Source of the DNA: Aestuariirhabdus litorea
GTDB taxonomy: Bacteria; Pseudomonadota; Gammaproteobacteria; Pseudomonadales; Aestuariirhabdaceae
DNA: 64,000 nucleotides
Direction of reading: 5' to 3'
Assembly (NCBI RefSeq): GCF_003864255.1
Contig: NZ_QWEZ01000002.1
Span: forward strand, 186,001-250,000
Below the pieces are notes generated by a model. The model saw only the letters and a program-made list of their open reading frames with translations, made no database searches and had not been told where the DNA came from. Positions 21,172 through 41,999 of this stretch are shown here, piece after piece. Positions within the stretch are counted from its first letter, which is position 1. Each line of letters opens with the position of its first letter. The translations under genes and the position numbers were made by a program.

Positions 21172-21492
21172 AAATCCTCCGGTCTATGTTTTGTTATTTC
21201 GTGCTTGAGTATTGCCCCACTTATCACGCACTGCTTGTTATAAAAGGACAACTCTGCCGGTGTCGGAGACCCCAGGAAACGAAACAGAAAGAGGCGCTGG
21301 GAGCCCCCGATTAAGGGGCCAGTTTGCAGCGGCAGGACACGCTGCCACCCTGACCGGCCCGGATCGACCGTCGTCCCAAACCAATAAAGGCGAGCCCGCC
21401 GGTGCGGGATCGCCTTTATTGGGTTTAGGTGCCAATTACGTCCTTAAGCCAGCGGTGACCCAGAATGTTATCGCCCGTTTATCCGGCCCGTC
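21172..21492. other. 321-base gene-free stretch with the operon terminator
   Basis: Holds the strong hairpin at 21382-21421 and, nearer to 21172, the upstream region of the GH88-like gene. The short reading frames on both strands lack ribosome binding sites and overlap the hairpin. No further structure seen. Confidence 0.5.
21382..21421 (-). terminator. strong rho-independent-type terminator of the D-amino-acid operon
   Basis: CAATAAAGGCGA and TCGCCTTTATTG are perfect 12-base complements, and inside them CCCGC and GCGGG add five more pairs around a CGGT loop. On the minus strand the stem ends in a T-rich stretch (TTTATTGGTTTGG). It lies 71 bases after the deacylase stop and separates that operon from the GH88-like gene. 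Confidence 0.75.
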
Positions 21493-23148
21493 TCAATGGC
21501 CGAAATCATGCCCGTGGCCGGACTCATCGACTGTGAATGCAGGAATCGTAATGTTTTTCAGGAACTCTGAGTGATCCAGCCCTTGAAACCGACCCTCCTC
21601 ATCCGCTTCGAAGCGGATAGGCTGGCCTGCCCACACCTTCTTGAAGGTTCCGTTCTCGACGACGGCCTGACCATTAACGATCACATAGGAGATACCGGTG
21701 GTGGGCAATCCCTGTTCACCCCGCTTATAGGTTGCGTTGTCAGTGACGTTTTCGGGATCGAAGATCGTTATGTCTGCGACCATTCCCTCCTGCAGGCGCC
21801 CCCGCTCATCCATCGCCTGTACCCCTGCCTGCCCGAGGTGCATCGCGGGCCAATAGGACATTTGAGACAAGGTAAACATCAATGGTACGCCCTCTTCACG
21901 CGCCATACGCAGCACCCGTCCTCGGGTTCCCGCTGTGCGGGGATGCCCCTTGTATTCAGTCGGTGCAACATCCCAGGAATCAAGACCCAGCTCTGAGGAG
22001 AGCGAGTCGGCCGCAACGGTCATATGAGGTACCCTGAGCCAGGATTTCATCCAGTCCTTACGGGGCGGACTGAATACCGTCACAAGGTGGCCGGGCTCTT
22101 CCTTGGCCAGGGCCAGGTATTCATCTTTGGTGAGGAATTTATCCTGCTGAGGATCATACATAATGTCCTCATATTTATAGCCGAACACCCCTTCTACCGA
22201 TTCAGGCACCAGAAAGGAGGAACCAATCGCTGTGGCAGCCGCACCGTAGGGGTAATATTCCGACCACATATTGAGCCCTCGCTCGCGAGCGAGCTTGAGC
22301 TTTTCTTCGATCTCCCACCACCCATAATCATTATTGTGGGCGATCAGCAGAGGCGACCCCAACACCATGGCATTGGTAAACACCTCATCAAAGCCCAGCT
22401 GCGCCTCTGGGTTAACGGGGTTTGCGTGGAATCGTGTATGGGAAGAGGTAAAGCGTCCCCAGTTGGCAGCGACCTTCATGGACTGATACATCTCAAAGGA
22501 GGTAAGCCCATTGCGCATATAGGCGGTGGTCGACGCCAGGTTAAGGGCACCCTCTTTGAAACCCTCATCGAGGATTTTTAAAATCTGATTCATCTGCTCG
22601 GGGTCGGCTTTTGATACCGACCAGCCGCTCACCCCATCCTTGGCAGCGGCATTACGCAATGCACCAATAATTCCGATCGCATCCTGTGGAACGTCAATTT
22701 TGACCTCAGGGTCGAGCACCTGCAGGCGAGCACCTTCATGGCTGATGCCCGTGCCATAGTTCAAGGGCCACTTTCCTTTTTTGGATTCATACCAGTCAGC
22801 AATACCGATCGCACCCACCTCCAGGTCCATCCCGGTGGTGACGCCATCCAGGGCGCCCAGCTTGACGGCCAAACCATCAAGCGAATGGAAATGGGTGTCG
22901 ATAAAGCCGGGGGCAACCACCTGGCCCGTCGCATCAATGGTGGTGCTGCCCTCCAGCTTTGAGGGGGTGATTTTAACGATCCGGCCATCCTTGACGCCGA
23001 TATTCAAGACCGCATCAAGCATGGTTTCCGGGTCCATGACACGACCGTTTTCAATCACCATATCGTAGTCTGAAGCCATAAGGGGAGCGACGGTTAAACA
23101 CAAGGCCATCCCTAATGCACCGCTGAGGCGCCTATTGGTTACTTTCAT
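21493..23148 (-). CDS. secreted N-acyl-D-amino-acid (probably D-glutamate) deacylase
   Basis: A 551-residue amidohydrolase with a Sec signal peptide (GALGMALCLTVAPLMAS). The metal motif is GFIDTHFHSLDG (His86, His88, Asp91). The body, through YPYGAAATAIGS and GRLQEGMVADITIFDPENVTDNATY, resembles proteins annotated as N-acyl-D-glutamate deacylase. The family frees D-amino acids from N-acyl conjugates. Here it should act in the periplasm. The C-terminus ends in a short His-rich tail (HGHDFGH). It is the last gene of a dat-transporter-deacylase operon closed by the hairpin at 21382-21421. Exact acyl and amino-acid specificity is inferred. Confidence 0.82.
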   Translation of the reverse strand: MKVTNRRLSGALGMALCLTVAPLMASDYDMVIENGRVMDPETMLDAVLNIGVKDGRIVKITPSKLEGSTTIDATGQVVAPGFIDTHFHSLDGLAVKLGALDGVTTGMDLEVGAIGIADWYESKKGKWPLNYGTGISHEGARLQVLDPEVKIDVPQDAIGIIGALRNAAAKDGVSGWSVSKADPEQMNQILKILDEGFKEGALNLASTTAYMRNGLTSFEMYQSMKVAANWGRFTSSHTRFHANPVNPEAQLGFDEVFTNAMVLGSPLLIAHNNDYGWWEIEEKLKLARERGLNMWSEYYPYGAAATAIGSSFLVPESVEGVFGYKYEDIMYDPQQDKFLTKDEYLALAKEEPGHLVTVFSPPRKDWMKSWLRVPHMTVAADSLSSELGLDSWDVAPTEYKGHPRTAGTRGRVLRMAREEGVPLMFTLSQMSYWPAMHLGQAGVQAMDERGRLQEGMVADITIFDPENVTDNATYKRGEQGLPTTGISYVIVNGQAVVENGTFKKVWAGQPIRFEADEEGRFQGLDHSEFLKNITIPAFTVDESGHGHDFGH

Positions 23149-23256
23149 GTTGTTATTTTACTCCTGACCGCCTTGACGGAGGGCAGGCCACCGATCAACA
23201 ACACCGGTGGCCAGTCAGCCCTGTTCATTGTTAAAAACTCACAACCCCTTAGCGGG

Positions 23257-24348
23257 TTAGGCTTCCACCCGGGCTTTACCGAACACCTGCTTTCTCGCAA
23301 CAAAAAACAGAAATATCACCCCTAAATAGCCGGCCAGCGGAAAGATGAAATTGACCAGTGCAGAAAAAGGCAGCAACACAGAACAGAAATAACCAAGCAG
23401 GGAGAGAACGGCCGCATAAAGCCGATATTTTTTGCTTTTATCGTCCGGAGAAAACCTGGCCAAAACCATCCACAAGCAGGGGGCGCAGGTCGTGAATATT
23501 CCCGCCAAAATGATATAAACAAACAGCTCTGCAATTTTTCCCGTACTCTGCGCCGCGAGCACCAGGGTGGGGATTTCCGCACCAGTAACAGCAGGCGTTG
23601 AAGCAATCAAAGCGAGCACCAACAACAGCAACGTCAGGAACAGCAGCAAGGACCCCAGAAGGCCGCCACCGATCAGGTTTTTACTGATTTTCTCCCGCCC
23701 ACCAATAACCGGCAAGATACTGGCCAGCCCTATCACCTGGAAGGCGAGATAGATAATTCCAGAGAGCCACCAGTAGGGCGTCGCCTGGTACTGGGCCCCG
23801 GACTCCGCCAAAGGCCGGTCATAATCAAAACCAAGCCCGGTGTCCATAAGCACCGACAGTGCAATCACCACCACCAGGCCAACCAGCAGGGGCCCTATTG
23901 ATCCAACAACATTAACGAGCTGTTGCAACCCGAATATAACCACTAGCAGCACCAGCACCGCCATTAGGCCGGCCCCCGCTGCCACAGGCACCCCGAAGGA
24001 CTGTGAAATCACCGAGCCCGCTCCCGACAACATCACCACATAGGCAGAAAAGAGGAACAGTGTGGCAAACCAGGACATCAGCTTTCCTGCAATATCGCCG
24101 AGATAGTAGCGAAAAACCTCCTCGCCACTCTTGAAGTGATATTTTTGCCCCACCAGCAAAAGAGAGATCGTTGCATAGGAGCAGAGCGCAAAGAAAATCA
24201 GGGTTCCTGCTAGGCCCAGGCTTCCATGCACTACAAAAAACTGCATCACCTCCTGGCCCGTTGCAAAGCCGGCACCGACGATCAAGGCAACGATAGCCCC
24301 CGCAATTTTTAGGGTTTTAAATGCATCTTGAAACATAGGAATACTCAT
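23257..24348 (-). CDS. YkvI-type membrane transporter (APC superfamily)
   Basis: A 363-residue membrane protein with about ten hydrophobic segments. LKIAGAIVALIVGAGFATGQEVMQFF is the unwound first-helix signature of the YkvI group, distantly related to sodium-coupled amino-acid carriers (LeuT fold). LPFSALVNFIFPLAGYLG ends the protein. Lying between a D-amino-acid transaminase and an N-acyl-D-amino-acid deacylase gene, it probably imports the released amino acid. The start at 24348 places the first helix at the N-terminus; ribosome binding site weak, ATG 24336 possible. Start gap to the upstream transaminase is 69 bases. Confidence 0.8.
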   Translation of the reverse strand: MSIPMFQDAFKTLKIAGAIVALIVGAGFATGQEVMQFFVVHGSLGLAGTLIFFALCSYATISLLLVGQKYHFKSGEEVFRYYLGDIAGKLMSWFATLFLFSAYVVMLSGAGSVISQSFGVPVAAGAGLMAVLVLLVVIFGLQQLVNVVGSIGPLLVGLVVVIALSVLMDTGLGFDYDRPLAESGAQYQATPYWWLSGIIYLAFQVIGLASILPVIGGREKISKNLIGGGLLGSLLLFLTLLLLVLALIASTPAVTGAEIPTLVLAAQSTGKIAELFVYIILAGIFTTCAPCLWMVLARFSPDDKSKKYRLYAAVLSLLGYFCSVLLPFSALVNFIFPLAGYLGVIFLFFVARKQVFGKARVEA

Positions 24349-24417
24349 TTTTATTATTTTTAGCTGTGAGTCACGCCCCCAAAGGGGCGTTGAACTCACC
24401 GCGATATAAATGCCCGA

Positions 24418-25284
24418 TCAGACATTGAGGTCAAAGCAGTGGCGGTTGTAACACGCCCTCGCCTTTTCCCAGACCGGGCCCACCTTGCCATCGGCAACGG
24501 GCCGACCGTCGAGCGTCACAACCGGCAAAATATGAACACCGGAATTGGTCACCCATACCTCATCAGCCCCGCGAACCTCATCCATATGAATGACCCGCTC
24601 TGACACGCCGAACCCGCCCTCCTTGCGGAGACTTTCGATCATCAGGTGACGAGTAATACCAGGCAGGATCTGCTCATCCAGAGGCGGTGTAATGATTTGA
24701 TTGTCGTTGACGATAACTACGTTACTGGCACTACCTTCGGTGAGCTCATTGTCGGCATTGTACAAAATGCACTCATTGCCACCGCGACTGTAACTGTCCT
24801 GGAAATGTAAAACATTGCCCAGCAGCGCCGTGGACTTGACGTTACAGCGCTTCCAGCGCTTGTCCTGCGCCGTGTAGCAGGATAATCCCGGCTGGGTTTC
24901 GCTGTCGGGTTCACCCAGGAAAGGAAATATCGGCGTGGTCATCGCAAATACCGTGGGGGTCACTTTCTCCGGGAAGGCATGGTAACGACGTCCCTCGTCG
25001 CCACGAGTAATGTGCAAGTAGATGCCTAAGTCAGTACCCTCATTGCGTTCAAGCAGTTGCTGTGAAATCTCAAGCCACTGCCGCACAGAAATATCCGGCC
25101 GCACGATACCGATGGCATCGAGGCCATTATTCATGCGATCCAGATGGAGGTTAAAGCCGACAAAGCGCCCGGAATGCGACGGGATCAACTCGTATATGCC
25201 ATCACCAAACAGGAAACCACGGTCCATGGGGGATATTTTTGCCTGCTCTACAGGCATAAAGTCGCCATTAAGATAAACAATCAT
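24418..25284 (-). CDS. D-amino-acid transaminase
   Basis: A 288-residue fold-type IV PLP aminotransferase. The PLP Lys is in RCNVKSTALLGNV (Lys150) and the second cofactor contact is NELTEGSASNV. Tyr31, and Arg100 and His102 in GRRYHAFP, match the Tyr31/Arg98/His100 carboxylate trap of Bacillus D-amino-acid transaminase, which favours D- over branched-chain L-substrates. It would pass the amino group of D-Ala, D-Glu or similar to a 2-oxoacid. AGAGGTTACTG precedes the ATG at 25284; the longer frame to 25332 is unlikely. First gene of the operon. Confidence 0.88.
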   Translation of the reverse strand: MIVYLNGDFMPVEQAKISPMDRGFLFGDGIYELIPSHSGRFVGFNLHLDRMNNGLDAIGIVRPDISVRQWLEISQQLLERNEGTDLGIYLHITRGDEGRRYHAFPEKVTPTVFAMTTPIFPFLGEPDSETQPGLSCYTAQDKRWKRCNVKSTALLGNVLHFQDSYSRGGNECILYNADNELTEGSASNVVIVNDNQIITPPLDEQILPGITRHLMIESLRKEGGFGVSERVIHMDEVRGADEVWVTNSGVHILPVVTLDGRPVADGKVGPVWEKARACYNRHCFDLNV

Positions 25285-25443
25285 CAGTAACCTCTTCTTG
25301 AATAGCCAACACAACTCCTCCCCTTTATGCACCCTACGGACAGCGCTGGAGGTTTACAGGTCACGGAGAGGGTGCCGGGGGGGCTAATTAACTCCGGCTC
25401 AGGTACAACACCCGTTTCTCTGTAGCGCCAAAGCCTTCATCCA

Positions 25444-25495: not shown

Positions 25496-27931
25496 TCAGG
25501 AAGCCTTTGAGGCGGGATGGGCCAGGGGGCCTTCATGCGCCAGCCCCACCTCCTCGCTTTCACCTGCACCCTCAGGCTGCGTTTCGCTGCCTTTCGCCCT
25601 GGGTTTGACCAGGAAGTAGGCCAGTGCCGGCAGCACCAGCAGCGCGCCCACCATGTTCCACACAAACATAAAGGTCAGCAGCAGCCCCATATCGGCCTGG
25701 AACTTGATTGGCGAGAAGGTCCAGGTCGCTACACCAACACCCAGCGTCACACCGGTAAAGGCCACGGCCCGGCCAGTGGTTTTGAGGGTTTCTATATAGG
25801 CACGATGGACGTCATAACCCTTATCCAGCCACTCCTTCATCTTGCTGTAGATGTAGATGCCGTAGTCGATACCAATGCCCACACCCACCGCGATCACCGG
25901 CAGTGTGGCCACCTTGATACCGATGCCCATTTTGGTCATCAGGGCCTCACACAGCACCGAGGTGATGTAGAGCGGCACGACGATGCAGATGGCGGCGCGG
26001 ACACTGCGGAAGGTGATGATGCAGACCATGATTACCGTGATGTAGACCACCCAGGTGGTCAGCAGGTGCGCGTTCTCAACCTCATGATTGGTGGCCGCTT
26101 CAATGCCAGCGTTACCGGCCGCCAGCAGGAAGTTAACCCCATCCAGATCCACCGTTTCATTGAACGCTTCTACCACCGCAACCACGCGATCCAGGGTCTC
26201 CGCCTTATGGTCGGTCAGGTACACCTTGATGGGGCTGAAGTTACAATCAATGGTGGTCCACTCCGGCTTCGCCCGGGTAGCGGTATAGCCGAGGAACTGG
26301 TCGCTTCGTGAAAGCGTTTTCGCCTTCAGCGAGCCTTCGCTCATACCGGCATTGAAGTTTTTGGTGAAATCCGCGATCGATTGCGTCGACTGAACCCCGG
26401 GGGTGTTGCGCAGCTGCCACTGCAAACGGTCGATCTCGACCAGGGTGCGATAATCGGTACACTTGTCCTTGGGACTCTCCACCATCACCACAAACAGGTC
26501 ACTACTGGTTGAGTAGTGATCGATGATGTAGGCGTTGTCGATGTTGTAGCGCGAGTCGGGCCTTAGCTCGGGTGCACCGGGATCCAGATCACCGATCTTG
26601 AGGTCCATCCTGACGTAAGAGGCACCGGCGAACAGTACCGCAGTCCCCGCGAGGACAGCGATGGCGTAGGGACGCTTGGTCACTTGCGCAATCTTGGTCC
26701 ACAGGACGCTGCTCTCTTCCTCTTCGATCTTTTCCAGCTTATTCACCGCTCGGCGGCTGACACCGGTGTAACTCATCAATACCGGCAGCAAGCAGAGGTC
26801 ACACAGGGCCACAACCGCCACGCCGATGGTGGCGCCCACCGCGATATCCTGAATCACGCCGATCGCAATGATGAACAGCAGGGCAAAGCCGACGCCATCG
26901 GTAAACAGTGCCGATAGACCAGGCAGGTAGACCGCACGGTAGGCGCGTCGTACGGCGGTCAGTTTGTCCTGGCCGGCCATCAGCTCATGGACCACCGCAT
27001 TGAACATCTGGATGCCGTGGCTGACGCCCAGCGCAAACATGAGGAACGGCACCAGCATCGAGTAGGGGTTAAGCCCAAACCCGAGGGCATGGAGTATGCC
27101 CATCTGCAGCACCACCGCGATGATGGAGGAGACCGCCCGTGAGAGGGTACTGCGCCAGCAGCGTGAGTTGACCCACAGCAGCGCCAGCAAAATGACAAAG
27201 GCGATCAGGAAGAAAAAGCCGACCAGGATCGCGCCGTCGATCAGGTCACCCACCAGTTTGGCAAAGCCAATGATGCGTATCTTGATCTTTTCATTCTGGA
27301 ACCGGTCCCGGATCTGCTCTTCGAGCGCCCCGCTAAACTCATGATAGTCGAGAGGCTTTTTTGCTTCGGTATCGTACTCGACCAAGGGGACGATGAGGGT
27401 GGTCGACTTGAAGTCATTGGCAACCATCGACCCCACCAAACCGGCCGTTTGTATGTTCTTCTTCAATTGCTGCAAAGAGGCTTCGGAACCATCAAAGCCA
27501 TTCGGCATGACGGTATCACCCGTAAAGCCCTCTTCGGTTACCTCGGTATAGCGAACCGCCGAGGCCCACAACGAGATCATATTCTGGCGATCGACTCCGC
27601 GCAGGAAGAAGGTGGCATCGTGCACTTCACGCAGGGTCTCGATGTACTCTTTGGTGAAGATATCTCCTTCGGTGGTTTCAACAACAATGCGAACCGTGTT
27701 ACTCAGCCCTTTGAGCTTATCGCTGTGTTTTTGGTTGGCCTGAATGTACTCGTGATAAATGGGGATCATGCGTTCGAAGCTGGCCACCGGGCGCATCTGC
27801 ATGACGTGGTAACCAAAATAGAGGGTTAGCAGCGCAAAGATGATCAGTACCAGAGGCCGGTTGCCGAATACAAGGCGTTCGATTAGCGGCGCGTTATCCG
27901 TAGACGAGGCCAGGGTGTTGTTGTGCTTCAT
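25496..27931 (-). CDS. MMPL/RND-superfamily transporter
   Basis: An 811-residue membrane protein with the half-size RND layout: one helix, a periplasmic loop (about 55-225), a five-helix sterol-sensing-like bundle, a second loop and a second bundle. GVSHGIQMFNAVVHE and GVGIGIDYGIYIYSKM are the MMPL-type TM4 and TM10 motifs. It has no AcrB-type adaptor beside it. In many proteobacteria this type is encoded with DUF1302, DUF1329 and Ycf48-like genes, as here, and the group is thought to move hydrophobic molecules through the envelope. It starts two bases after the Ycf48-like stop. Confidence 0.87.
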   Translation of the reverse strand: MKHNNTLASSTDNAPLIERLVFGNRPLVLIIFALLTLYFGYHVMQMRPVASFERMIPIYHEYIQANQKHSDKLKGLSNTVRIVVETTEGDIFTKEYIETLREVHDATFFLRGVDRQNMISLWASAVRYTEVTEEGFTGDTVMPNGFDGSEASLQQLKKNIQTAGLVGSMVANDFKSTTLIVPLVEYDTEAKKPLDYHEFSGALEEQIRDRFQNEKIKIRIIGFAKLVGDLIDGAILVGFFFLIAFVILLALLWVNSRCWRSTLSRAVSSIIAVVLQMGILHALGFGLNPYSMLVPFLMFALGVSHGIQMFNAVVHELMAGQDKLTAVRRAYRAVYLPGLSALFTDGVGFALLFIIAIGVIQDIAVGATIGVAVVALCDLCLLPVLMSYTGVSRRAVNKLEKIEEEESSVLWTKIAQVTKRPYAIAVLAGTAVLFAGASYVRMDLKIGDLDPGAPELRPDSRYNIDNAYIIDHYSTSSDLFVVMVESPKDKCTDYRTLVEIDRLQWQLRNTPGVQSTQSIADFTKNFNAGMSEGSLKAKTLSRSDQFLGYTATRAKPEWTTIDCNFSPIKVYLTDHKAETLDRVVAVVEAFNETVDLDGVNFLLAAGNAGIEAATNHEVENAHLLTTWVVYITVIMVCIITFRSVRAAICIVVPLYITSVLCEALMTKMGIGIKVATLPVIAVGVGIGIDYGIYIYSKMKEWLDKGYDVHRAYIETLKTTGRAVAFTGVTLGVGVATWTFSPIKFQADMGLLLTFMFVWNMVGALLVLPALAYFLVKPRAKGSETQPEGAGESEEVGLAHEGPLAHPASKAS

Positions 27932-27933
27932 GA

Positions 27934-29118
27934 TCAGTTGACCTCGACAGAAAAGCTCTGGGCGCTGTGAGCCGTAACGCCATTAGTACCGACGGTAATC
28001 ATTGGGCCCTGCTGGAGAATCAGGAACGATGAAATCGCCCCGGTGCTGGACCAGGGAAGCCGTTTAAAGGCGGTACTGTCCGGGTTTGAAATCAGCAGTT
28101 GCGGGGCATATTGCGACATCAAAAAGCGGCCATCCTCCAACAGGACGGCCTTGGAGAGGTTGAGGTTGGTACCGGTCTCTACCGGGGCCCAGGTCTCGCC
28201 ATTATCTTCAGAGAGGAAGGCGTTACCGCGCAGCCCCAGCAGCAGCACGCGCTCCTTATCCACCACCACATCGAAGAAGGAGCCCTCATAAGGGGAGTCC
28301 AGCAGTTCCCAGGTCTCCCCCCCGTCGGTGGAGCGCTGTATATGCCCGCCTTCACCAGCGATAAAGAGCGCATTCTCGTCACCGGCCATGGCGTTGTAGT
28401 GACGCGCGTCGGGGTTCTTTAATGAGGGGGCCGGGCTATACCAGCTTTTGCCGCCATCCCTGGTACGCAGGATCAGCCCAAAGGTGCCCACGGCAAACCC
28501 CTCCGAGGGGTTTTTAAACCAAAGGTCCACGAAGGGACGAACCGGCCCCTCTTCGACAAAAGAGGCCGAGTCATCGAGCATAAACTCGAGGCTTTCCAGC
28601 TCCATTTCGAGGGGCTCGCGTTCGGACTCAGCGGCCAGCTCCAGCGCCTCGATCCTGGCCTCTGCGGCCGTCGTGAAAGCATCCACCATCAGCTGGTGTG
28701 CCTGGTTGCCGTCCAGCTGTTTGCTCCAGGTCAGGCCGCCATCCTGGCTCATCAGGATGACACCCTGATGGCCAACGGCCCAGCCCAGAGGGCCGGCATC
28801 CGGGAAGGTGACGGCGGTGAGCATCACCCGTACCGGTACCTCGGCCTGCGTCCAGCTTTGTCCCAGGTCGTCGGAGTACAGGATATGCCCCCGCTCGCCA
28901 ACGGCGACGATCCGCGAGCCGGTTAACGCCACATCCAACAGCAGCGATTGGGCGGCGACGGGGACCTGGATAGCCGGTGCGTGCAGCGGATCCTCAAACG
29001 CCTGCGCCTGCACACTGAGCAAGAGGGCAAACACGGCGACCTGGGCTGGCCGGTGCAACCGTCGTAGCTGGCGAGCACACGCACTTTTCACTGAACCTGG
29101 TGACTCATGAAACAACAT
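27934..29118 (-). CDS. Ycf48-like beta-propeller, exported
   Basis: A 394-residue protein with an N-terminal signal region (PAQVAVFALLLSVQAQAFEDP) and repeated BNR/Ycf48 blades with the Asp-box-like motifs YSDDLGQSWTQ, MSQDGGLTWSK, TRDGGKSWYS, STDGGETWEL and SEDNGETWAP. A seven-bladed propeller is expected. Between blades two and three lies a charged helical insert (about 130-175, ALELAAESEREPLEMELESL). Related to photosystem II factor Ycf48 by fold, but here it belongs to the DUF1302/DUF1329/MMPL set and is probably a periplasmic scaffold. AGAGG lies before the ATG; tightly coupled to the transporter gene downstream. Confidence 0.85.
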   Translation of the reverse strand: MLFHESPGSVKSACARQLRRLHRPAQVAVFALLLSVQAQAFEDPLHAPAIQVPVAAQSLLLDVALTGSRIVAVGERGHILYSDDLGQSWTQAEVPVRVMLTAVTFPDAGPLGWAVGHQGVILMSQDGGLTWSKQLDGNQAHQLMVDAFTTAAEARIEALELAAESEREPLEMELESLEFMLDDSASFVEEGPVRPFVDLWFKNPSEGFAVGTFGLILRTRDGGKSWYSPAPSLKNPDARHYNAMAGDENALFIAGEGGHIQRSTDGGETWELLDSPYEGSFFDVVVDKERVLLLGLRGNAFLSEDNGETWAPVETGTNLNLSKAVLLEDGRFLMSQYAPQLLISNPDSTAFKRLPWSSTGAISSFLILQQGPMITVGTNGVTAHSAQSFSVEVN

Positions 29119-29232
29119 AGAAACCTCTGACGGACGTTTTATTCTTGATTTAGCCCCAACCGGATAACGCCAACCGTTTCCGCTTGGTTTGTAGTAACGG
29201 GGGTTGGATAGATCGGCGCACTATCGATCTGT

Positions 29233-29262
29233 GGCTGTGGTGGTAGAAACCACCAGAAAGCC
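29233..29262 (-). other. intercistronic hairpin between DUF1329 and Ycf48-like genes
   Basis: TGGTGGT and ACCACCA form a seven-pair stem with an AGAA loop, extended by GGCT/AGCC after a small bulge. It lies in the 218-base gap that splits the operon into two pairs. Without a T run it looks more like an mRNA processing or stability element than a terminator. A second inverted pair, GTGAATGG/CCATTCAC, lies at 29286-29325. Confidence 0.4.
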
Positions 29263-29336
29263 AGAAGTAGATCGGCGTCGAGAAAGTGAATGGACACAGG
29301 CTCGGTCGACCCCCTGCCCATTCACCCAACTGCAGG

Positions 29337-30689
29337 TTAGCGTCTGGCCTGTTTACGGATGCCCTGAGGCGTGAAGAATTCCTTCTCTTTAGGCTCAACG
29401 CCTGCGAGCGGATGCGTATCTACGTAAGCCCACAGGAACTGGCCGGAGTCGATATCAAAGGCCATAATCGGCCGGGCGAATGAGCCCTGGATAGCGGGAT
29501 CATAGGCCTGGTAGACGTTGGCCCAGGTATAACGCCACAGCTCACCCTTGCCATCGTATTTCTCTGTCAGGGCGATGTTCCAGGTATCTTCATCGAGATA
29601 GAAGGTACGCTTGGCATAGATATGGCGCTCACCCTCTTTCAGGGTCGCTTCAACCACCCATACCCGGTGCAGTTCCCAACGCCACAAGTTTTTGGGGTCT
29701 GAGGCGATCGCCTCCTCCATCTTCATCTCGCCTTTACCGTAGGCACTCGCCAGATCATAACCACTGTAGGGGATATAGATCTCTTTTTTACCAAGTACTT
29801 TCCAGTCGTAACGGTCTGGTGATCCGTTGTACAGGAAGGCATCGTCATAGGTGAAGATGCTGCTATCGGGTGTATCGTACGCCACGGTAGGGGCACGACG
29901 GACACGACGCTGGCCAGGAATATACTGCCACGCCTCTCGAGGCGTCGCTGCTGCATCGATATAGTCGTTCACCAGGATCATTTCACCCTTACGACGAGCC
30001 GGGTAGTTGTAGGTCACGAAGAACGAAAACAGCTGCCCGTCCGAACAGTCGCTGTTCTGGTCGTAGTAGTGCCACTGCCACAGCGTGTTGGACTCACCCG
30101 CCAGGGTCGTTGCGGGGTTGTGCATATAGCTCTGGAAGGCGGTGTACTGCATGTGCAGGGATGACCCTTTCCAACGCGAGTTATGGTTGAGGATCATCTC
30201 ATTGCCGTTGTTGGTAATCGGGAAAGGAATACCGCCGCAGGCATTGTTGGCACCAGTGCCCGCGTCATTCAGTGAGGCGTTGATGGCGTTGTTGTAGGTG
30301 TTCTCCTGAACCCAATCCGGCGCCGCCGCAGTACGGTGGGTCGGGTAGACGTTCATCTTGATCTGATCGGGGTAGCGCTTGAAGGCATCAATCTGGCTGG
30401 GGGTGAGCTTGTCGATATACTGCTCATAGTTAGACGCCGTAATGGTAAACAGCGGCTTCTCGTCGGCGAATGGATTAGGCATCCAGTCTCCTGACTGGAA
30501 CCCGGCTGGCGCCTCGGTCAAACCGCCTGTCCACTCAGGGATCGTGCCGTCCGCATTACCCCCACGCTCGGCCCCAAACGGGGTCAGCACTGATTTCAAC
30601 TTCTCTGCTTCTTCTACCGTAACTGCCGCCTGGGCGGAGCTTATGCCCAGCAGCATCGCACTGCCAATCGTCATCAATTTATTACGCAT
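29337..30689 (-). CDS. DUF1329 exported protein
   Basis: A 450-residue precursor with signal peptide (LMTIGSAMLLGISSAQAA) and the DUF1329 body: LTPFGAERGGNADGTIPEWTGGL at the mature N-terminus, NPFADEKPLFTITASNYEQY, PGQRRVRRAPTVAYDTP and AKRTFYLDEDTWNIALTEKYD. The fold is LolB/LolA-like, suggesting it carries lipids or other hydrophobic molecules across the periplasm. GGGAGATCATC precedes the ATG. It lies 38 bases after the DUF1302 stop, the usual pairing. Confidence 0.92.
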   Translation of the reverse strand: MRNKLMTIGSAMLLGISSAQAAVTVEEAEKLKSVLTPFGAERGGNADGTIPEWTGGLTEAPAGFQSGDWMPNPFADEKPLFTITASNYEQYIDKLTPSQIDAFKRYPDQIKMNVYPTHRTAAAPDWVQENTYNNAINASLNDAGTGANNACGGIPFPITNNGNEMILNHNSRWKGSSLHMQYTAFQSYMHNPATTLAGESNTLWQWHYYDQNSDCSDGQLFSFFVTYNYPARRKGEMILVNDYIDAAATPREAWQYIPGQRRVRRAPTVAYDTPDSSIFTYDDAFLYNGSPDRYDWKVLGKKEIYIPYSGYDLASAYGKGEMKMEEAIASDPKNLWRWELHRVWVVEATLKEGERHIYAKRTFYLDEDTWNIALTEKYDGKGELWRYTWANVYQAYDPAIQGSFARPIMAFDIDSGQFLWAYVDTHPLAGVEPKEKEFFTPQGIRKQARR

Positions 30690-30727
30690 GATGATCTCCC
30701 ACTAATTTTTAGAGTTGTTCGCTGTTA

Positions 30728-32275
30728 TTAGAATGAATACTTCAGAGCCAGGCTGACGTAGTCGCGATCGTCCTTTGAGTTCTGCCGGGAACCACCAAAG
30801 AAGTTCACGTAACCAAGCTGCATCTGGTACTTCAGCTTGTAGATCACATCCAGGGTGACACCCACCTTGTCAGAGCCTTCAGTGAACGATCCACCCATCG
30901 CAGAGTTACCATTAACGCCCTGCGACAAACTGATGGGCAGATTGATGTCCGTGTTCGGGAAGGCTTCCAGCCAGGTCGGCTTCAGGGTCAGGGCATAGCC
31001 GTAGGCAAACTTGTCTTTGGCCAGCTCATCGCGGTCCATATCCAGCACATCATCGGCCGCGACCTCTGCGGTCAGGCTGAGGTTATCCATCAGCGCGTTG
31101 GCACCGAAAATATGGATCCCGGAGAGCGAGTAGTGCATCAGCTTGGCGCGCTCCCAGGTAAATCCGAGAGGGTTGCCTGCTTTAACGGTAACCGGGGCAT
31201 TTTCGCGGTAGCTGACCTCACCGGAGATATTGGTGCTGCCGATGACCGTACCGAAGCTGGCCGCCCACAAACGCACATCTTCTACGTAATCGAGATAGTA
31301 TTCGAAGTTTGCCAAGTCCAAAGTCAACTGCGGCAACTGGTCATGGTAGGTGATGTAGTAGAGGCCAAACTCGGTACCGTTGAGCTCTTCGGCCAGGTAA
31401 CGCAGAGCGACACCCCACTGACCACTATCTCTCGCCTCGTTGTCTGCACCACGAGGTATCGGCCCAAACGGGCTTAGCAGACTTTCTCCTCCCTCATCGA
31501 TCATATCAGCGGTTGAGAAGTAGCTACCGGCCGCATCCAGGGTGTGTTCTTGCCACTCCCACTGGTAGTAGGCTTCCATCGAGAGGTTATCGGTCAGCGA
31601 GGTCTGGATAGCGATCTGCTCAACCGGCAAAAACAGCTCTTTAAGCTCTGCACCGGGCTGGTTGAAACCGGTGGCGTCCACCGGGCCCTGGGAGGTGGCC
31701 ACACCGCCGAGCAGGAACAGGGTTTCACCCCAGTTCAGCGCCTGGCTGCCGATCCGCAGGGTGGTGTCGTGACCACCCAGATCTGCCCCCGCGTAGAGGA
31801 AGTAATCCAGCATCTCGGCATCGCGGCCATGCTGGCGGCGGGTGTCCTCGGTGAACTCGTTGTAGGGCTTGGACACATTGTTACTGGTGGCTGGGGAGTC
31901 GTGGTCGTTGGAGCGGTTATAGACCCGGTCGTACCAGGCGCGGCCGCGGACAAAGGCCCCCAAATCGTAGAAGGGACCGACTTCCCCAAAGTTCAGGTCC
32001 GCCTCCGTAATCACGTCAAAGCGGTTCTTGATCAGGCTGTTCTTATCAAAGTTGCGGTTGCCGTCATCGCCGTTGGCGTTTTTGCCGCGAAGTAGATAGT
32101 CGTCCTGCTTGGCCACACGTTGGGCAACGGTGTAACGAAGGTTGGTATCCCAGTCCAGAGTGGTTTGCTCCCCCAACTGAAAGTTCAGAGCGTACACACT
32201 GGAAGACGCCGCCAGATAGACAGGGATAGCCATCGCTGCCTGAATTGCGGCCTTTATTGTTGTTTTTTTCTGCAT
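30728..32275 (-). CDS. DUF1302 outer-membrane protein
   Basis: A 515-residue outer-membrane beta-barrel candidate with signal peptide (AIQAAMAIPVYLAASSSVYA). Family motifs: LNFQLGEQTTLDWDTNLRYTVAQR at the mature start, YDLGAFVRGRAWYD, LRIGSQALNWGETLFLLGG, and the C-terminal strand VSLALKYSF, whose terminal Phe is the usual signal for barrel insertion. First gene of the minus-strand envelope operon. Two palindromes sit in the upstream region. Proposed to act as the outer-membrane port of the DUF1302/DUF1329 system; the substrate is unknown. Confidence 0.92.
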   Translation of the reverse strand: MQKKTTIKAAIQAAMAIPVYLAASSSVYALNFQLGEQTTLDWDTNLRYTVAQRVAKQDDYLLRGKNANGDDGNRNFDKNSLIKNRFDVITEADLNFGEVGPFYDLGAFVRGRAWYDRVYNRSNDHDSPATSNNVSKPYNEFTEDTRRQHGRDAEMLDYFLYAGADLGGHDTTLRIGSQALNWGETLFLLGGVATSQGPVDATGFNQPGAELKELFLPVEQIAIQTSLTDNLSMEAYYQWEWQEHTLDAAGSYFSTADMIDEGGESLLSPFGPIPRGADNEARDSGQWGVALRYLAEELNGTEFGLYYITYHDQLPQLTLDLANFEYYLDYVEDVRLWAASFGTVIGSTNISGEVSYRENAPVTVKAGNPLGFTWERAKLMHYSLSGIHIFGANALMDNLSLTAEVAADDVLDMDRDELAKDKFAYGYALTLKPTWLEAFPNTDINLPISLSQGVNGNSAMGGSFTEGSDKVGVTLDVIYKLKYQMQLGYVNFFGGSRQNSKDDRDYVSLALKYSF

Positions 32276-32288
32276 TGTTGTTTCCTTC

Positions 32289-32302
32289 TATGGATATCCA
32301 TA
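32289..32302. promoter_or_regulatory. perfect 14-base palindrome upstream of the DUF1302 gene
   Basis: TATGGATATCCATA is its own reverse complement and ends 13 bases before the DUF1302 start, just ahead of its GAAGGA ribosome binding site. Candidate operator or 5'-leader hairpin. Confidence 0.35.
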
Positions 32303-32572
32303 ATTGGAATTTGTCTTGTTATTTTTCTTTCCGCAGACCCGACCATACAGAAGAGAGCCGCAGACAGAGGGTTTATCACCAGACGATTGCCAAGGGCATT
32401 CCGGTTACGGGCTGGACCAGGTCTCCACAGACCATCCCCTTGCCTCGGCCAAACCTACCGCCGGCGCCTACGGGGGTCTGTCAACGAGATTACATTTGCT
32501 GTTCCGCCGCCATACCCCAGCAGGCGCCGAGATGCGTTCGCTCCACACCCCTGGCGGTTAGTTGCTGCCACA

Positions 32573-32595
32573 AAACCCTTGTAACACAAGGGTTT
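32573..32595. promoter_or_regulatory. perfect inverted repeat, candidate operator
   Basis: AAACCCTTGT and ACAAGGGTTT are exact complements around AAC, giving a 23-base site in the middle of the divergent region. It could be a dimer-binding site, or a hairpin with a three-base loop. The same ten-base half occurs at 43065-43074, next to the start of the AraC-type regulator, where it also serves as that gene's ribosome binding site. Confidence 0.45.
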
Positions 32596-32755
32596 ATCGA
32601 CAGAAGCACAAAGCAGCGCCCTCTATTTTTCGCCCCGTGCAAGCCCTCAATACGCCCAAAGCACTGTCTCTTCATAACAAGCAAAAGCCCTGTAAGAGGG
32701 TCGATACTAAGGCGCTGACTACCCAGTTCCGCTTCATCGAAATCTACAGAGAAGA

Positions 32756-34072
32756 ATGAACACGACTATGAAAACAACAATGCGATTTAAGTTGGTCAAC
32801 ACCCTGTCCCTGTTCTTTATTACGGCGGCCCCTTTGGCCACCGCCGCGGTGGATGTTACGAAGACACGTGACGGTTATACCCTGGAGCAGAGCCAAACCT
32901 ATTCCAGTGCAACGGGTTACAAGGAGCTACTGGGAGGCGACAGTGTCACCTCCTGGTGGGCTGAGAATATCTCTCGCACTATGCTGACCGCGGTTCTTCC
33001 TAACCGCCTTCCTGCCAGCACCTTTGAAACCGACCTCGACGAGTGGCCCCTGAAGCTGGAGGCAGTCACTGCCGATACCCACCTCGGCGAGATAACCCTG
33101 TCCGAAGCGATTAACGATCCACGCGCTGCGGTCAAAGCGATGATCATTCTGCACAAGGGTAAAGTGGTATTTGAAACCTATCCCGGTTTGCATCCGGCCA
33201 ATAGCCACTTGTGGGCCTCCGTGGCCAAGCCCACCGCCGCACTGCTTATCGAGCAGCTGATCGATGAGGGCAAACTGAACGATAGCGATCGGGTCGATAC
33301 CTACCTGCCCGATTTCGCGGGGACGGCACTGGGCGAGACCACGGTGCAGCAACTGCTGGACATGGTTCCCGGTAGCGACACCCACGACAGCCCCTCGACC
33401 CGCCGGGACCCAGACTCCGTGGCCACCCGCTATTATCGCGCCGAGTTCGATGAAGCCTATAAGGACGGCAAAGTCGAAACCGTACGTGAAATACTGCAGG
33501 GGGCCGGTCGTACCGGCCCTGCCGGTGAACGGTTCGAGTACAGCTCCGGCATTACCCAGATGCTGGTTTTCATAGCCGAGGCGGTCACCAACCAAAGCTG
33601 GTCCGATGCGTTTGACGAGCGGGTTTGGTCCCACGTTCGTGCCGATGGCGCCCTGCAAGTGCACCTTGCACCCGACGGCATGGCAATGGCTCACGGTATT
33701 GTCTCCTCTCGCCTGCGCGACCTGGCTCGCTACGGCTTGCTCTACACGCCCTACTGGTCTCAGGTGGCCGACAAGCAGGTGGTGTCCGACGCCGCGATGG
33801 CGCGCATTGTCAACGCAGAGCACAACCGTGAGGCCTACGCGAAGGGGGACGGGCAGCGTTTTACCCCTCTGCTCGGTGAAGCACCGGTTGCCAACTCTCG
33901 TCAGTGGGATGCTATTTATGCCGATGGCGGTATGTTTAAAGGCGGCCTATTCGGCCAGGGGCTTTACGTATCACCCGAAGAGGGGATCGTGATTGCCTAC
34001 TACTCCACCGCTCCCGCATCCCCCCTGCACCGGTTCGTAAGGCCGCTATCGAAAGCACTTACCCAGGAGTGA
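32756..34072 (+). CDS. exported class C beta-lactamase-fold serine hydrolase
   Basis: A 438-residue precursor with signal peptide (LVNTLSLFFITAAPLATAA). The nucleophile motif SxxK is SVAK (Ser155-Lys158) in HLWASVAKPTAALLIEQLIDEGKL, and the YxN element is YSS (262-264). The spacing and DMVPGSDTHD block recall the 6-aminohexanoate-dimer hydrolase (NylB)/EstB branch, which cleaves amides or esters, rather than true beta-lactamases. Faces the DUF1302 operon across a shared control region, so its product or substrate may use that port. Several ATGs (32756, 32768, 32777) are possible starts. Confidence 0.83.
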   Translation: MNTTMKTTMRFKLVNTLSLFFITAAPLATAAVDVTKTRDGYTLEQSQTYSSATGYKELLGGDSVTSWWAENISRTMLTAVLPNRLPASTFETDLDEWPLKLEAVTADTHLGEITLSEAINDPRAAVKAMIILHKGKVVFETYPGLHPANSHLWASVAKPTAALLIEQLIDEGKLNDSDRVDTYLPDFAGTALGETTVQQLLDMVPGSDTHDSPSTRRDPDSVATRYYRAEFDEAYKDGKVETVREILQGAGRTGPAGERFEYSSGITQMLVFIAEAVTNQSWSDAFDERVWSHVRADGALQVHLAPDGMAMAHGIVSSRLRDLARYGLLYTPYWSQVADKQVVSDAAMARIVNAEHNREAYAKGDGQRFTPLLGEAPVANSRQWDAIYADGGMFKGGLFGQGLYVSPEEGIVIAYYSTAPASPLHRFVRPLSKALTQE

Positions 34073-34375: not shown

Positions 34376-35059
34376 ATGACAAACAGCGCCAACTGGATGT
34401 TACTACTGCCTGAAGAGGTGAGAACGGAGCTCTCGCGACACATGACGCTACGCAACTATCAGGACGGTCAATACATATACCGCGCGGGCGAAAGCAGCCA
34501 TTCCCTCTACCAGATTAAAGAGGGAGGGGTAAGGTTACGGGTCCTTTCCGAGAGCGGCAAAGAGGTTACCTACATCATATACAGCCCCGGTGACTGTTTC
34601 GGTTTTTTATCGGCTATTGATAGTGAGCCACGACCTCAAGACACCATCGCCGTTGGCGAGGTCACGGTTGCCAGTCTGTCCGTCAGTGAATTCGAACGAC
34701 TTAGGAACCTGTACCCGGCTATCGACCGGGCGCTGCTGCGGCACACCTCCTGGCGTATCCGCGAACTGTTCAAGATGTATGAGTTTGGAAACCTTTGCGA
34801 TCTGCGCAGGCGACTGGCGTTGCAAATTGGCTTTCTACTCGACTTCGGTGGCAAGTCAGACAGTGGCGACTCAGTCCAGGAAATTAAACTGACCCAGGAC
34901 ACCCTTGCCTCCTCTGTGTGCGCAACGCGCCAGGCCATCAGCAAGGTGCTCAAGAGCTGGTCGGATAAAGGCATTATTGAGTACCGTTATGGCCGCCTGA
35001 GGGTACTGGATCGCGGTCAGTTGGCCAAAATCTCCGAGCAAAGCAGCCCGGAGCACTAA
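34376..35059 (+). CDS. Crp/Fnr-family transcription regulator
   Basis: A 227-residue regulator. The cyclic-nucleotide-binding-type beta-roll spans about 15-125 (GQYIYRAGESSHSLYQIKEGGVRLRVLSESGKEVTYIIYSPGDCFG), the dimer helix 130-165, and a winged helix-turn-helix at 175-220 (LTQDTLASSVCATRQAISKVLKSWSDKGIIEYRYGRLRVLD). No N-terminal Fe-S cysteine cluster, so it is not Fnr; the cAMP contact residues of Crp are not clearly present either. It probably responds to another effector and could control the adjacent serine hydrolase/DUF1302 region. Weak ribosome binding site. Confidence 0.87.
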   Translation: MTNSANWMLLLPEEVRTELSRHMTLRNYQDGQYIYRAGESSHSLYQIKEGGVRLRVLSESGKEVTYIIYSPGDCFGFLSAIDSEPRPQDTIAVGEVTVASLSVSEFERLRNLYPAIDRALLRHTSWRIRELFKMYEFGNLCDLRRRLALQIGFLLDFGGKSDSGDSVQEIKLTQDTLASSVCATRQAISKVLKSWSDKGIIEYRYGRLRVLDRGQLAKISEQSSPEH

Positions 35060-35519: not shown

Positions 35520-36299
35520 ATGTCCGAATATCAGTTTATCCTGTCGGAACGGATCAATAATGTCGGCGTCATCACCCTCAACCGTCCCGAGCAGCTTAAC
35601 GCCATCAATGAGCTCGTCACCCAGGAGCTGGTTGATGCCTTGAGTGCCTTTGACCGCGATGATCGTATCGGCGCTATTGTGTTGACCGGCAACCGCCAGT
35701 GTTTCGCTGCCGGTGCCGATCTCAAGCACATTGCCCAGCTCGAATTTGCCGACGCCTACCGCTCCGATTTCGCCGCCCCCATCGACCAGGTGGCAGCCAT
35801 TCGTAAGCCCATTATCGCAGCGGTATCCGGTATCGCTTTCGGGGCAGGCACCGAAATCGCGCTGATGTGCGACATCATCCTGGCTTCGCAAAGCGCCCGG
35901 TTTGGGCTTCCGGAAGTCACCCTGGGGGTGATTCCCGGCGCCGGTGGCACCCAGCGCCTGTCTGACCGTATCGGGAAAGCCAAAGCGATGTATTACATCC
36001 TGACCGGGCGCCCCTTTAACGCCAGCGAGGCCGAGCAAATGGGACTGATCTCGCAGATCATGCCTGACGATACCCTGCTGGATGAGGCGATTAAGCTGGC
36101 GACAACCATTGCCAACAATCCTCGCCTGGCGGTGCTGGCCGGCAAGGAGACCGTCAACCAGGTGGCCGAGATAACGCTGGCTCAAGGGCTACAACTCGAG
36201 CGGCGGTTGTTCCATGGACTTTTTGGGACTGCCGACCAGAAGGAGGGTATGGCCGCCTTTGGCGAAAAGCGTAAGCCTAACTACACCACCTACGAATAA
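35520..36299 (+). CDS. enoyl-CoA hydratase/isomerase (crotonase)
   Basis: A 259-residue crotonase. The oxyanion-hole segments are FAAGADLKHIAQ and SGIAFGAGTEIALMCDIILAS, and both catalytic acids are present in FGLPEVTLGVIPGAGGTQRLSD (Glu of PEV and Glu/Gly of the second loop in the hydratase pattern). This matches true enoyl-CoA hydratases of the PaaF/FadB-like group. It should hydrate a trans-2-enoyl-CoA in a catabolic route. First of two adjacent crotonases, 26 bases apart. Ribosome binding site modest. Confidence 0.9.
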   Translation: MSEYQFILSERINNVGVITLNRPEQLNAINELVTQELVDALSAFDRDDRIGAIVLTGNRQCFAAGADLKHIAQLEFADAYRSDFAAPIDQVAAIRKPIIAAVSGIAFGAGTEIALMCDIILASQSARFGLPEVTLGVIPGAGGTQRLSDRIGKAKAMYYILTGRPFNASEAEQMGLISQIMPDDTLLDEAIKLATTIANNPRLAVLAGKETVNQVAEITLAQGLQLERRLFHGLFGTADQKEGMAAFGEKRKPNYTTYE

Positions 36300-37265: not shown

Positions 37266-37664
37266 ATGAAAGAGACCCTAACCCTGGGCTGTACCAAGAC
37301 CCTGCGCGTGATCATCGATGATGCCCGCACGATCGACTTTATGGGCGAAGAGATGCGGGTCTACGCCACCCCTGAGCTGGTCCGGGATATTGAGATGACC
37401 TGTCGCGAGATACTGGTGGAACACTCCGATGCCGGCGAAGACTCGGTCGGCACCCGGGTGGTGGTGGACCATATGGGCGCCACGCTCAAGAGTATGTGGG
37501 TCGACATTACCGCTACCGTTACAGCCGTTGAGGGGCCCCTGGTACACTTTGAGGTGACGGCCAACGACGCCCTTGAACAGATCGCCAGGGGAAGCCACCG
37601 TCGCTTTTCCGTTCCCGTCAGCAAGCTGGAACAGAAACTGAAGGCCAAACTCGCCTGCCTTTAA
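37266..37664 (+). CDS. FlK-like acyl-CoA thioesterase
   Basis: A 132-residue hot-dog protein resembling the fluoroacetyl-CoA thioesterase FlK of Streptomyces cattleya. Thr35 (YATPEL), Glu43 (DIEMTC), Gly62 (SVGT), His69 (VVDHMGA) and Arg113 (GSHRRF) stand at exactly the spacing of FlK Thr42, Glu50, Gly69, His76 and Arg120, so the whole catalytic set is kept. FlK-fold relatives are common and not all act on fluoroacetyl-CoA. AAGGAG precedes the ATG. Follows two crotonases and converges with a 2-hydroxyacid oxidase with a four-base overlap of stops. Confidence 0.85.
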   Translation: MKETLTLGCTKTLRVIIDDARTIDFMGEEMRVYATPELVRDIEMTCREILVEHSDAGEDSVGTRVVVDHMGATLKSMWVDITATVTAVEGPLVHFEVTANDALEQIARGSHRRFSVPVSKLEQKLKAKLACL

Positions 37665-38827
37665 CGGCGCTCAACGCGTTCAATCACCTCCGGGCTGAGC
37701 TGGCCAACCTGGTTTATCCCCATCAGCGCCATTCCGATACTGGTCTCGTGCTGGAAACGGGTCAGCAGGTTCGCCAGCCCCTCCTCGCCGCCACCGGCCA
37801 GGGCCCACACCCAGGGACGACCGATCAGCACACCCCGGGCCCCCAGGGCAACGGCCTTGAGCAGGTCCAGACCGTTGCGCACACCGCCATCGAGGTAGAC
37901 TTCGGCCCGCTCCCCGACCGCTGCGGCTATAGCCGGCAACCTGGAAATGGTGGACGCAACACTGTCGAGCTGTCGGCCCCCGTGATTGGAGACCACCACC
38001 CCATCGGCGCCGACATCGATCGCCGCCACGGCATCGTCGGTCTCGAGCACCCCCTTGATCAGCAGTTTACCTGGCCATAGGGAGCGCAACCAGGCGATCT
38101 CCTCCCAGGTCACCGAGGGGTCATACTGGGACTCGATAAAGGCTTTGCAGGCATCCAGCTCATTGAGGTCAGGCCTTAGGTCCGCCAGGTTGCCAATACT
38201 CAATGGTTTCCCCTTGATGGCAACATTGAGCAGCCAGTGGGGGCTGCTGAGTATTTGTGCTGCTTTCGAGATCTTCCCAACCCGGCCACCCGCCGCTACT
38301 CCGTTTCGAAAAACCCGTGTACGGAAGCCGGTCAGCGGCGCATCCACAGCGAACACCAGGGTCGTGCAGCCGGCCCGCTGGGCCCGCTCCAACAGCGCTT
38401 GCATCAAGTCGCGATCTTTCAACATATAGAGCTGGAACCACGCGGGTCGCCCGCTGGCCAATGCCACCTCCTCGGTCGAGCTGATGCCGAAGGCTGATAG
38501 CGTAAAGGGGATATCGACCGATCTCGCCGCCATCGCGGCCTGTACCTCTCCACGGCGCGCAAACAGCCCGGCCATACCGATGGGCGCCAACGCCAGCGGC
38601 ATACTGGAGGGCTGGCCCGCCAGGGTGGTGCGGGTATCGACCTGGCTGACATCCTTCATGACCCGCTGGACCAGCTGGTAACCGTCGAAGTCAGTTGCAT
38701 TGCGGGCCAATGTGGCTTCGTTGTTGGCGCCACAGTCGATAAAGTCAAACAGGAAGCGGGGCAGGCGACGTCGCGCCCGGCGCCGATAATCATCCACGGT
38801 GACCGGGTTAAAATTCACTATCTCCAT
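37661..38827 (-). CDS. FMN-dependent 2-hydroxyacid oxidase/dehydrogenase
   Basis: A 388-residue TIM-barrel flavoenzyme of the glycolate oxidase/LldD/mandelate dehydrogenase family. The catalytic His and substrate Arg are in SNHGGRQLD; LAPIGMAGLF, WFQLYMLKDR, LLIKGVL and YLDGGVRNGLDLLKA form the FMN site. The N-terminal Tyr of the family (Tyr24 of spinach glycolate oxidase) is Phe29 here (LFDFIDCGANNEATL). It should oxidise an L-2-hydroxyacid to the 2-oxoacid. AGGAGTTGAAG precedes the ATG at 38827. The next gene upstream on this strand is a GntP permease, likely its substrate importer. Confidence 0.9.
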   Translation of the reverse strand: MEIVNFNPVTVDDYRRRARRRLPRFLFDFIDCGANNEATLARNATDFDGYQLVQRVMKDVSQVDTRTTLAGQPSSMPLALAPIGMAGLFARRGEVQAAMAARSVDIPFTLSAFGISSTEEVALASGRPAWFQLYMLKDRDLMQALLERAQRAGCTTLVFAVDAPLTGFRTRVFRNGVAAGGRVGKISKAAQILSSPHWLLNVAIKGKPLSIGNLADLRPDLNELDACKAFIESQYDPSVTWEEIAWLRSLWPGKLLIKGVLETDDAVAAIDVGADGVVVSNHGGRQLDSVASTISRLPAIAAAVGERAEVYLDGGVRNGLDLLKAVALGARGVLIGRPWVWALAGGGEEGLANLLTRFQHETSIGMALMGINQVGQLSPEVIERVERR

Positions 38828-38961
38828 CTTCAACTCCTGCCAAAATAGGAAAGCCGATTTACGAGTGGATGGCCCCGGGAGTAGTTGGGCCAGGGCCCTC
38901 ACGCCTTATCAACGCAGGGACCTGGCGCAGCCGCTGCCCCTTCCTATCCGAGTATGCCAAC

Positions 38962-40335: not shown

Positions 40336-40473
40336 CGTGAGGTACTCTCCGCTTACGATTGTAGTTATTGTGCCGTGCGAATAACGGCGTAAAGCTAGGA
40401 CAACAGGGTGTTCACTCAATAAGGGGACTGCAGCCAAAACGCTGCAACCCTCAATGGAAACAGCAGGCGCCCG

Positions 40474-41682: not shown

Positions 41683-41999
41683 GCCTCATTCCTCTCCATT
41701 CAATACAGAATGTTCAGCCTCTTGTTGTTATGGCAATGCTCGCAAACAAAACCGCGACCGCCCGCACGCCTGCAGGAGCGGCTGTACCTTCTTACGATAA
41801 CGATCTGACGCGCTATTATTACGCTACCCCTTTGAGAGCTACTTGTTTTAAGCGGACAAACCCTAGAGCAAAATCGACGTTTGAGAGAGGTTTTTAGCGC
41901 CAGCCTGCAGGAGCCGGAGACCCGGACAGTGACTGGGCTGGGCCGTTGGGAGGGGAAAACGCGTTAGGGGGATGAGGTTAAAGGGCCTGGAGAAGTCCC
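41683..41999. other. 317-base gene-free stretch
   Basis: Lies upstream of the CoA-transferase gene and downstream of the AraC-type regulator gene. GCCTGCAGGAGC occurs twice (near 41770 and 41910), otherwise nothing repeated. It should hold the promoter of the CoA-transferase/GntP/oxidase genes. No gene seen. Confidence 0.4.

Follow-up and report, generated by a model that had tools for sequence, protein, structure and literature searches.

Two systems probably lie side by side in a low-GC island of Aestuariirhabdus litorea: a conserved hydrolase module and an AmeABCD-type envelope set

Two groups of genes face each other across a short intergenic region in the stretch of Aestuariirhabdus litorea DNA analysed here (64,000 nucleotides of contig NZ_QWEZ01000002.1, positions 186,001 to 250,000; hereafter the window). 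On one side stands a set of four genes for envelope proteins, and on the other a gene for an exported SxxK hydrolase. Does the hydrolase work with the set, or is it only a neighbour? The initial annotation had read the set as a trans-envelope route and proposed that the hydrolase either produces the molecule moved by the set or is protected from it. The five genes themselves were borne out, as open frames lie where they had been placed and the Pfam families match. The interpretation survived in part: the trans-envelope route stood, while the partnership between hydrolase and set did not. From sequence comparisons, we consider it rather probable that one low-GC catabolic island houses two adjacent systems, namely a seven-gene, motif-linked module that includes the hydrolase, and an AmeABCD-type set with no specific tie to the hydrolase. 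The features at the centre of the question are the following.

25496-27931, minus strand: MMPL/HAE3-like RND transporter (AmeD-like); PF03176 4e-31; TIGR00921 1.7e-45, under the curated cut-off
27934-29118, minus strand: Ycf48-like propeller (AmeC-like); PF14870 (Ycf48/PSII_BNR) 6.9e-20
29337-30689, minus strand: predicted DUF1329/LolA-like periplasmic protein (AmeB-like); PF07044 1.8e-115, PF17131 2.8e-10
30728-32275, minus strand: predicted DUF1302 outer-membrane barrel (AmeA-like); PF06980 4.6e-146
32276-32755, no strand: divergent intergenic region of 480 bp, between the DUF1302 start at 32275 and the hydrolase start at 32756
32756-34072, plus strand: exported SxxK hydrolase of the NylB/class C beta-lactamase fold family, a core gene of the module; PF00144 8.4e-29

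The company that the hydrolase keeps in other genomes bears directly on the question. It was matched at E <= 1e-60 in 15 of the 390 genomes of the order, and at an identity of at least 72% in five, its own included (72-73% in the other four). Around the hydrolase of each of these four relatives (G004, G105, G179 and G260) 27-55 kb were read, and no protein within these stretches matched a set gene (blastp E <= 1e-10). Set genes were also found at neither of two loci in G133, where more distant hydrolases (43-46%) lie with a flavin mononucleotide (FMN) dehydrogenase (62-63% identical to that starting at 37661 in the window), a GntP protein (74%), an amidohydrolase (34%) and IlvD/Edd-type proteins; of nine further genomes with distant hydrolases (E <= 1e-60), the comparison took in 3.5 kb of one, G233. 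A contig scan with two peptide patterns, by which loci may be missed, named Seongchinamella unica, a gammaproteobacterial metagenome-assembled genome and Shewanella gaetbuli. In S. gaetbuli, the hydrolase (67%) has neither the set nor other core genes of the module within 10 kb. The proposal that the hydrolase works with the set is not upheld, because the set adjoins it in one of five close loci, at neither G133 locus and nowhere within those 10 kb. An Ame-type MMPL protein is present somewhere in all five hydrolase genomes, compared with 143 of 390 in the order, but we did not count this as a link because of kinship: three of the five belong to one genus (g79), and G157, G240 and G298 of that genus, which are not among the hydrolase genomes, have an Ame-type MMPL protein as well. 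Since the relatives place the hydrolase in a conserved group other than the set, the pairing probably reflects a local arrangement rather than a fixed partnership.

The conserved group consists of seven core genes, which occurred in all five close loci in variable order. Beside the hydrolase, these are in the window (with identities given for all four relatives):

19453-19905, minus strand: MaoC-like hydratase; PF01575 9.3e-26; 64-69%
20017-21171, minus strand: GH88-like protein; phmmer match to unsaturated glucuronyl hydrolase (UGL) 2ahf, 5.1e-25; 86-87%
35520-36299, plus strand: crotonase (ECH); PF00378 6.9e-77; 60-63%
38962-40437, minus strand: GntP-family permease; PF02447 1.2e-14; 66-69%
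40474-41682, minus strand: CaiB-type coenzyme A (CoA) transferase; PF02515 1.3e-80; 58-61%
42000-43121, minus strand: AraC-family regulator; PF12625 and HTH_18; 55-58%

By comparison with the relatives, the true start of the AraC gene is probably near 43061. The GH88-like protein was found at an identity of at least 86% in exactly the five hydrolase genomes among the 390, with three further genomes at 29-32%; in 340 genomes of the class, it was matched at E <= 1e-60 in A. litorea only. The block 19453-43121 has a GC content of 0.569, compared with 0.622 and 0.623 in its flanks, and for this reason fits an accessory island. For its part, the module looks like a separate breakdown pathway that has yet to be characterised; the parts of the literature seen in searches on the set families, the hydrolase and module terms contained no description of it.

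Operons of the module are further linked by a motif, TGTCCNNTCANANCAAGC, which was found before core operons in all five genomes. Upstream stretches numbered 32, from seven gene families in five genomes with the window included, and the spaced word TGTCC-N8-CAAGC occurred in 18 of them, with some divergent regions counted twice and with G179 and G260 nearly identical. A looser pattern matched 29 places in the five regions; six were in the window, of which five preceded core genes and one fell within an unrelated open frame. A position weight matrix was built from 18 sites in the four relatives, 17 of them distinct, with no window sites. Five of the 23 non-window matches had been left out by eye because they had no TCA-type centre (G004 30363, 43592 and 53801; G105 23034; G179 21754). 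Held-out scores per lineage ranged from 16.3 to 31.0. In the window, the matrix gave these sites:

21233-21250, minus strand: AraC-type motif before the GH88-like gene; 23.9 bits
32665-32682, plus strand: AraC-type motif before the hydrolase; 20.9 bits; 91 bp from the ATG
35319: weak motif upstream of the crotonase; 10.9 bits, within chance
41841-41858, minus strand: AraC-type motif before CaiB; 15.7 bits, a score that 2 of 20 random sequences also reached
43122-43139, plus strand: AraC-type motif before the regulator gene; 24.9 bits; reversed, as in the four relatives

As for chance, a site inside an RND gene scored 15.1 bits, and two of 20 Markov sequences of 64 kb reached 17.1 bits, the highest value. 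Against these values, the AraC, GH88-like and hydrolase sites alone are clear on score. Genome-wide, exact matches fell in the cluster in 4 of 4 cases for G179, 3 of 3 for G004 and 4 of 5 for G260, whose odd match (C3:298733) lies far from the cluster among unrelated frames. In G105, all six exact matches were in C11:110034-135899, and the distance to the hydrolase is 10-14 kb for two of them. The A. litorea genome has no exact match, and its one-mismatch matches were all in the window (3 of 3). In each of the five genomes, the AraC gene has a reversed motif in front of it (gene start taken from relatives for G105 and the window), and such a site would fit self-regulation. The hydrolase thus belongs to a conserved, probably AraC-regulated catabolic module, as indicated by its conservation with six other genes and by the common motif, and the set would be a neighbour.

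Is the set nevertheless controlled together with the hydrolase? The sole motif site in the divergent region precedes the hydrolase by 91 bp, while DUF1302 is 390 bp away from it. DUF1302 has no motif site of its own, as the next best score in 32200-32800 was -3.3 bits. In G179 and G260, a TonB-dependent receptor faces the hydrolase and has its own motif site. With a single site near the hydrolase, none by DUF1302 and a separate one for the facing receptor in these relatives, the promoters of hydrolase and DUF1302 are probably separate here, and the set is probably under separate control from the hydrolase module. Common control was rejected for the set side because no motif precedes DUF1302. 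Motif-like matches near other Ame sets (11.7 bits at L174 and 13.0 bits at L067) were at chance level and were not counted. Crp-/Fnr-type boxes were also rejected, as the three two-mismatch matches in the divergent region are among 32 matches with at most two mismatches over the window. One further element of the region is a possible operator:

32573-32595, no strand: perfect inverted repeat (arms of 10 bp, spacer of 3 nt), found once in the window

One arm of the repeat recurs at 43064-43074, directly upstream of the probable start of the AraC gene. Among 174 loci, five contain the exact arm, all of them in the A. litorea genome. The repeat folds as a stem, with a z of only -1.9.

Which reaction would the hydrolase contribute? 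Its best relatives in the PDB are the NylB-type 6-aminohexanoate-dimer hydrolases (4gb7, 3.3e-26; 2e8i, 7.9e-23). Its S155-V-A-K158 and Y262 align with the SxxK motif and the Tyr of these enzymes. Residues 115-425 of 438 align to the best match, and the window protein differs by an extra N-terminal region. In NylB-type enzymes, Tyr170 is linked to amide hydrolysis; in a pairwise alignment, R216 of the hydrolase lies opposite this residue, in a gapped region. The hydrolase would cleave an ester or an amide, with the sequence choosing neither. Under the pathway that we propose, it would do so in the periplasm or outside the cell and free an acid, the GntP permease would import the acidic product, and CaiB would make a CoA thioester of the imported acid. 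The crotonase and the MaoC protein would then pass the CoA ester into central metabolism, and the AraC protein would turn the module operons on with the substrate present.

The GH88-like protein may act on a sugar-acid-like part of the substrate. Residues 20-379 of its 384 align to the solved UGL (E 5.1e-25), and neither Pfam (E <= 1e-3) nor NCBIfam (E <= 1e-10) gave a family for it. The catalytic residues of the Bacillus UGL are Asp88 and Asp149. Opposite them in the alignment are F87 and V158, with D161 three residues off, and an AlphaFold model from four sequences (mean predicted local distance difference test score, pLDDT, of 51.8) was too poor to interpret. This step is the weak one of the pathway because the catalytic Asp residues are not clearly aligned and the model is poor. 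The clusters of G004, G179 and G260 contain an IlvD/Edd-type dehydratase (by Pfam for the G260 copy, L076), and that of G105 (L102, L101) has a protein which we take to resemble altronate dehydratase (UxaA type). These dehydratase types may hint at a sugar-acid part of the module substrate.

The set belongs to a known kind. It spans 25496-32275 on the minus strand and is transcribed in the order DUF1302, DUF1329, Ycf48-like, MMPL, with gaps of 38, 218 and 2 bp between consecutive genes. This A-B-C-D order in a single run is that of an AmeABCD-type cassette. Protein location and signal peptides were judged by eye from sequence, and Sec-type N-termini were seen on the DUF1302, DUF1329, Ycf48-like and hydrolase proteins. 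The DUF1302 protein, with a signal-like N-terminus and a C-terminus ending in KYSF, is predicted to be an outer-membrane barrel with a signal peptide, and the DUF1329 protein is predicted to be LolA-like. TIGR00921 aligned to residues 24-771 of the MMPL protein at 155 bits, compared with a cut-off of 352 bits. HAE3 RND pumps of such cassettes have 12 transmembrane helices and two periplasmic loops; the window protein has ten simple hydropathy peaks and two large loops (38-220 and 440-623).

A study of AmeABCD of Castellaniella defragrans describes a DUF1302 barrel, a DUF1329 LolA-like protein, a Ycf48/COG4447 protein and an HAE3 RND pump, whose deletion lowers monoterpene tolerance (PMC6394551). 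The window set has the same four families in the same order, where families and not the Ame sequences themselves were compared. The published cassette lies within a monoterpene island, whereas the window set lies beside the AraC/CaiB/MaoC/GntP module. In Pseudomonas putida, a second study, on PP_0765/PP_0766 and PP_2018/PP_2019, reports that DUF1302 and DUF1329 proteins are required for growth on Tween20 and are tied functionally to a periplasmic protein and an efflux-type transporter (PMC10866462). Judged by locus number these genes are at two places, whereas the window set is in one run. A third report places DUF1329, YCF48-related and MMPL genes together in a nanopod gene cluster of the benzene-degrading ORM2a (Desulfobacterota), labelled putative benzene transport (PMC13101534). 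It shares this grouping with the window set, and no hydrolase appears in the passages seen. The published AmeABCD arrangement and the Tween20 requirement agree with the trans-envelope route of the initial annotation (PMC6394551, PMC10866462). By analogy with these homologous systems, we take the set to be a trans-envelope carrier of the AmeABCD type that would move a hydrophobic or amphiphilic compound.

Among sets of this kind, the window copy is divergent as judged by sequence identity. The A. litorea genome has three DUF1302 and four DUF1329 genes, with a second complete set on contig C1. The window MMPL protein was matched at E <= 1e-150 in 143 of the 390 genomes, at no more than 52% identity among the matches listed (at most two candidates scored per genome). 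Full-set membership was read at selected loci of these genomes (C1, L067, L072-L075, L172 and L173). The A-B-C-D order was found again at the C1 set, L067, L072 and L172, and at L074 with extra genes inserted; L075 was without DUF1302, L073 had just Ycf48 and MMPL in the stretch read, and L173 had the MMPL gene separate from DUF1302-DUF1329. The window DUF1302 protein is 28-36% identical to those of the other sets compared. At E <= 1e-60 and its own copy aside, it had just two matches in 340 genomes of the class, at 33-35%. One of these (G021) adjoins an aldehyde dehydrogenase and a ring-hydroxylating beta subunit, and the other (G611) adjoins acyl-CoA dehydrogenases, an AMP-binding enzyme and a thiolase-like protein.

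Several further genes are of note. Elsewhere in the A. litorea genome is a DUF1302 and DUF1329 pair (L069, C2:1198000-1217000). In the 19 kb read there, nothing matched the Ycf48 or MMPL protein of the window set, and the neighbours of the pair, judged by their N-termini, presumably include an acyl-CoA ligase, a thiolase and an IlvD-like gene. Downstream of the window set and on its strand, 21493-25332 holds a class-IV aminotransferase (D-amino-acid type), a membrane protein without a family match, which we take to be YkvI-like, and an exported-looking amidohydrolase of the PRK09061 subfamily. These genes were not found with the core in the relatives, except for a 43% amidohydrolase in G004. 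The island also contains a Crp/Fnr-type regulator (34376-35059) and the FMN-dependent hydroxyacid dehydrogenase (37661-38902), which recurs near related clusters at 58% in G004 and 62-63% in G133. A thiamine pyrophosphate enzyme is close to the FMN dehydrogenase in related clusters.

Some observations weigh against two systems that are merely side by side. The set is in the same low-GC block as the module, and its recruitment for the same substrate would fit this as well. DUF1302 holds the divergent position that the TonB receptor takes in G179 and G260. Once up to two mismatches are allowed, genome-wide motif counts are at background level (11 matches in the A. litorea genome, five of them in the window, compared with 10 for the control), and the main support for the CaiB and crotonase sites is therefore their position. 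Moreover, word discovery took in window sequences, and binding of the motif by the AraC protein of the module is itself something we infer.

The first two points lead to the most interesting alternative, in which the Ame-type set replaced the module's TonB-dependent receptor here and carries the module substrate or the hydrolase product under its own promoter. All four relatives carry such a receptor. Those of G004, G179 and G260 share 84-91% identity and lie beside the hydrolase, divergently and with their own motif in G179 and G260; that of G105 is about 25% identical to the others and lies 3 kb from the hydrolase. The set at the receptor's place, the same low-GC block and the absence of a match to the relatives' receptor in the A. 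litorea genome (in a search without a positive control) make this alternative attractive. It is also in line with the aromatic and acyl-CoA catabolic clusters that house the two nearest DUF1302 relatives in the class, and with the requirement of P. putida proteins of the same DUF families on an ester detergent (PMC10866462). However, no motif precedes DUF1302, and the replacement rests on one genome, so we regard it as possible but rather doubtful. A fixed functional pair, with the hydrolase producing the set's cargo or being protected from it, is very improbable: the divergent adjacency in A. litorea and the MMPL protein somewhere in all five hydrolase genomes speak for it, but adjacency is limited to one of five close loci, the motif ties the hydrolase to other genes, and the S. 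gaetbuli hydrolase stands apart from both the set and the other core genes.

If replacement of the receptor were true, an energised Ame-type RND/DUF1302 route and a TonB receptor would be able to do the same uptake job for an otherwise conserved seven-gene regulon, and the module would open a direct way to the cargo of DUF1302/DUF1329 proteins. A set at the place of a TonB receptor, beside a defined regulon, offers a compact test for the unsettled cargo and direction of such sets.

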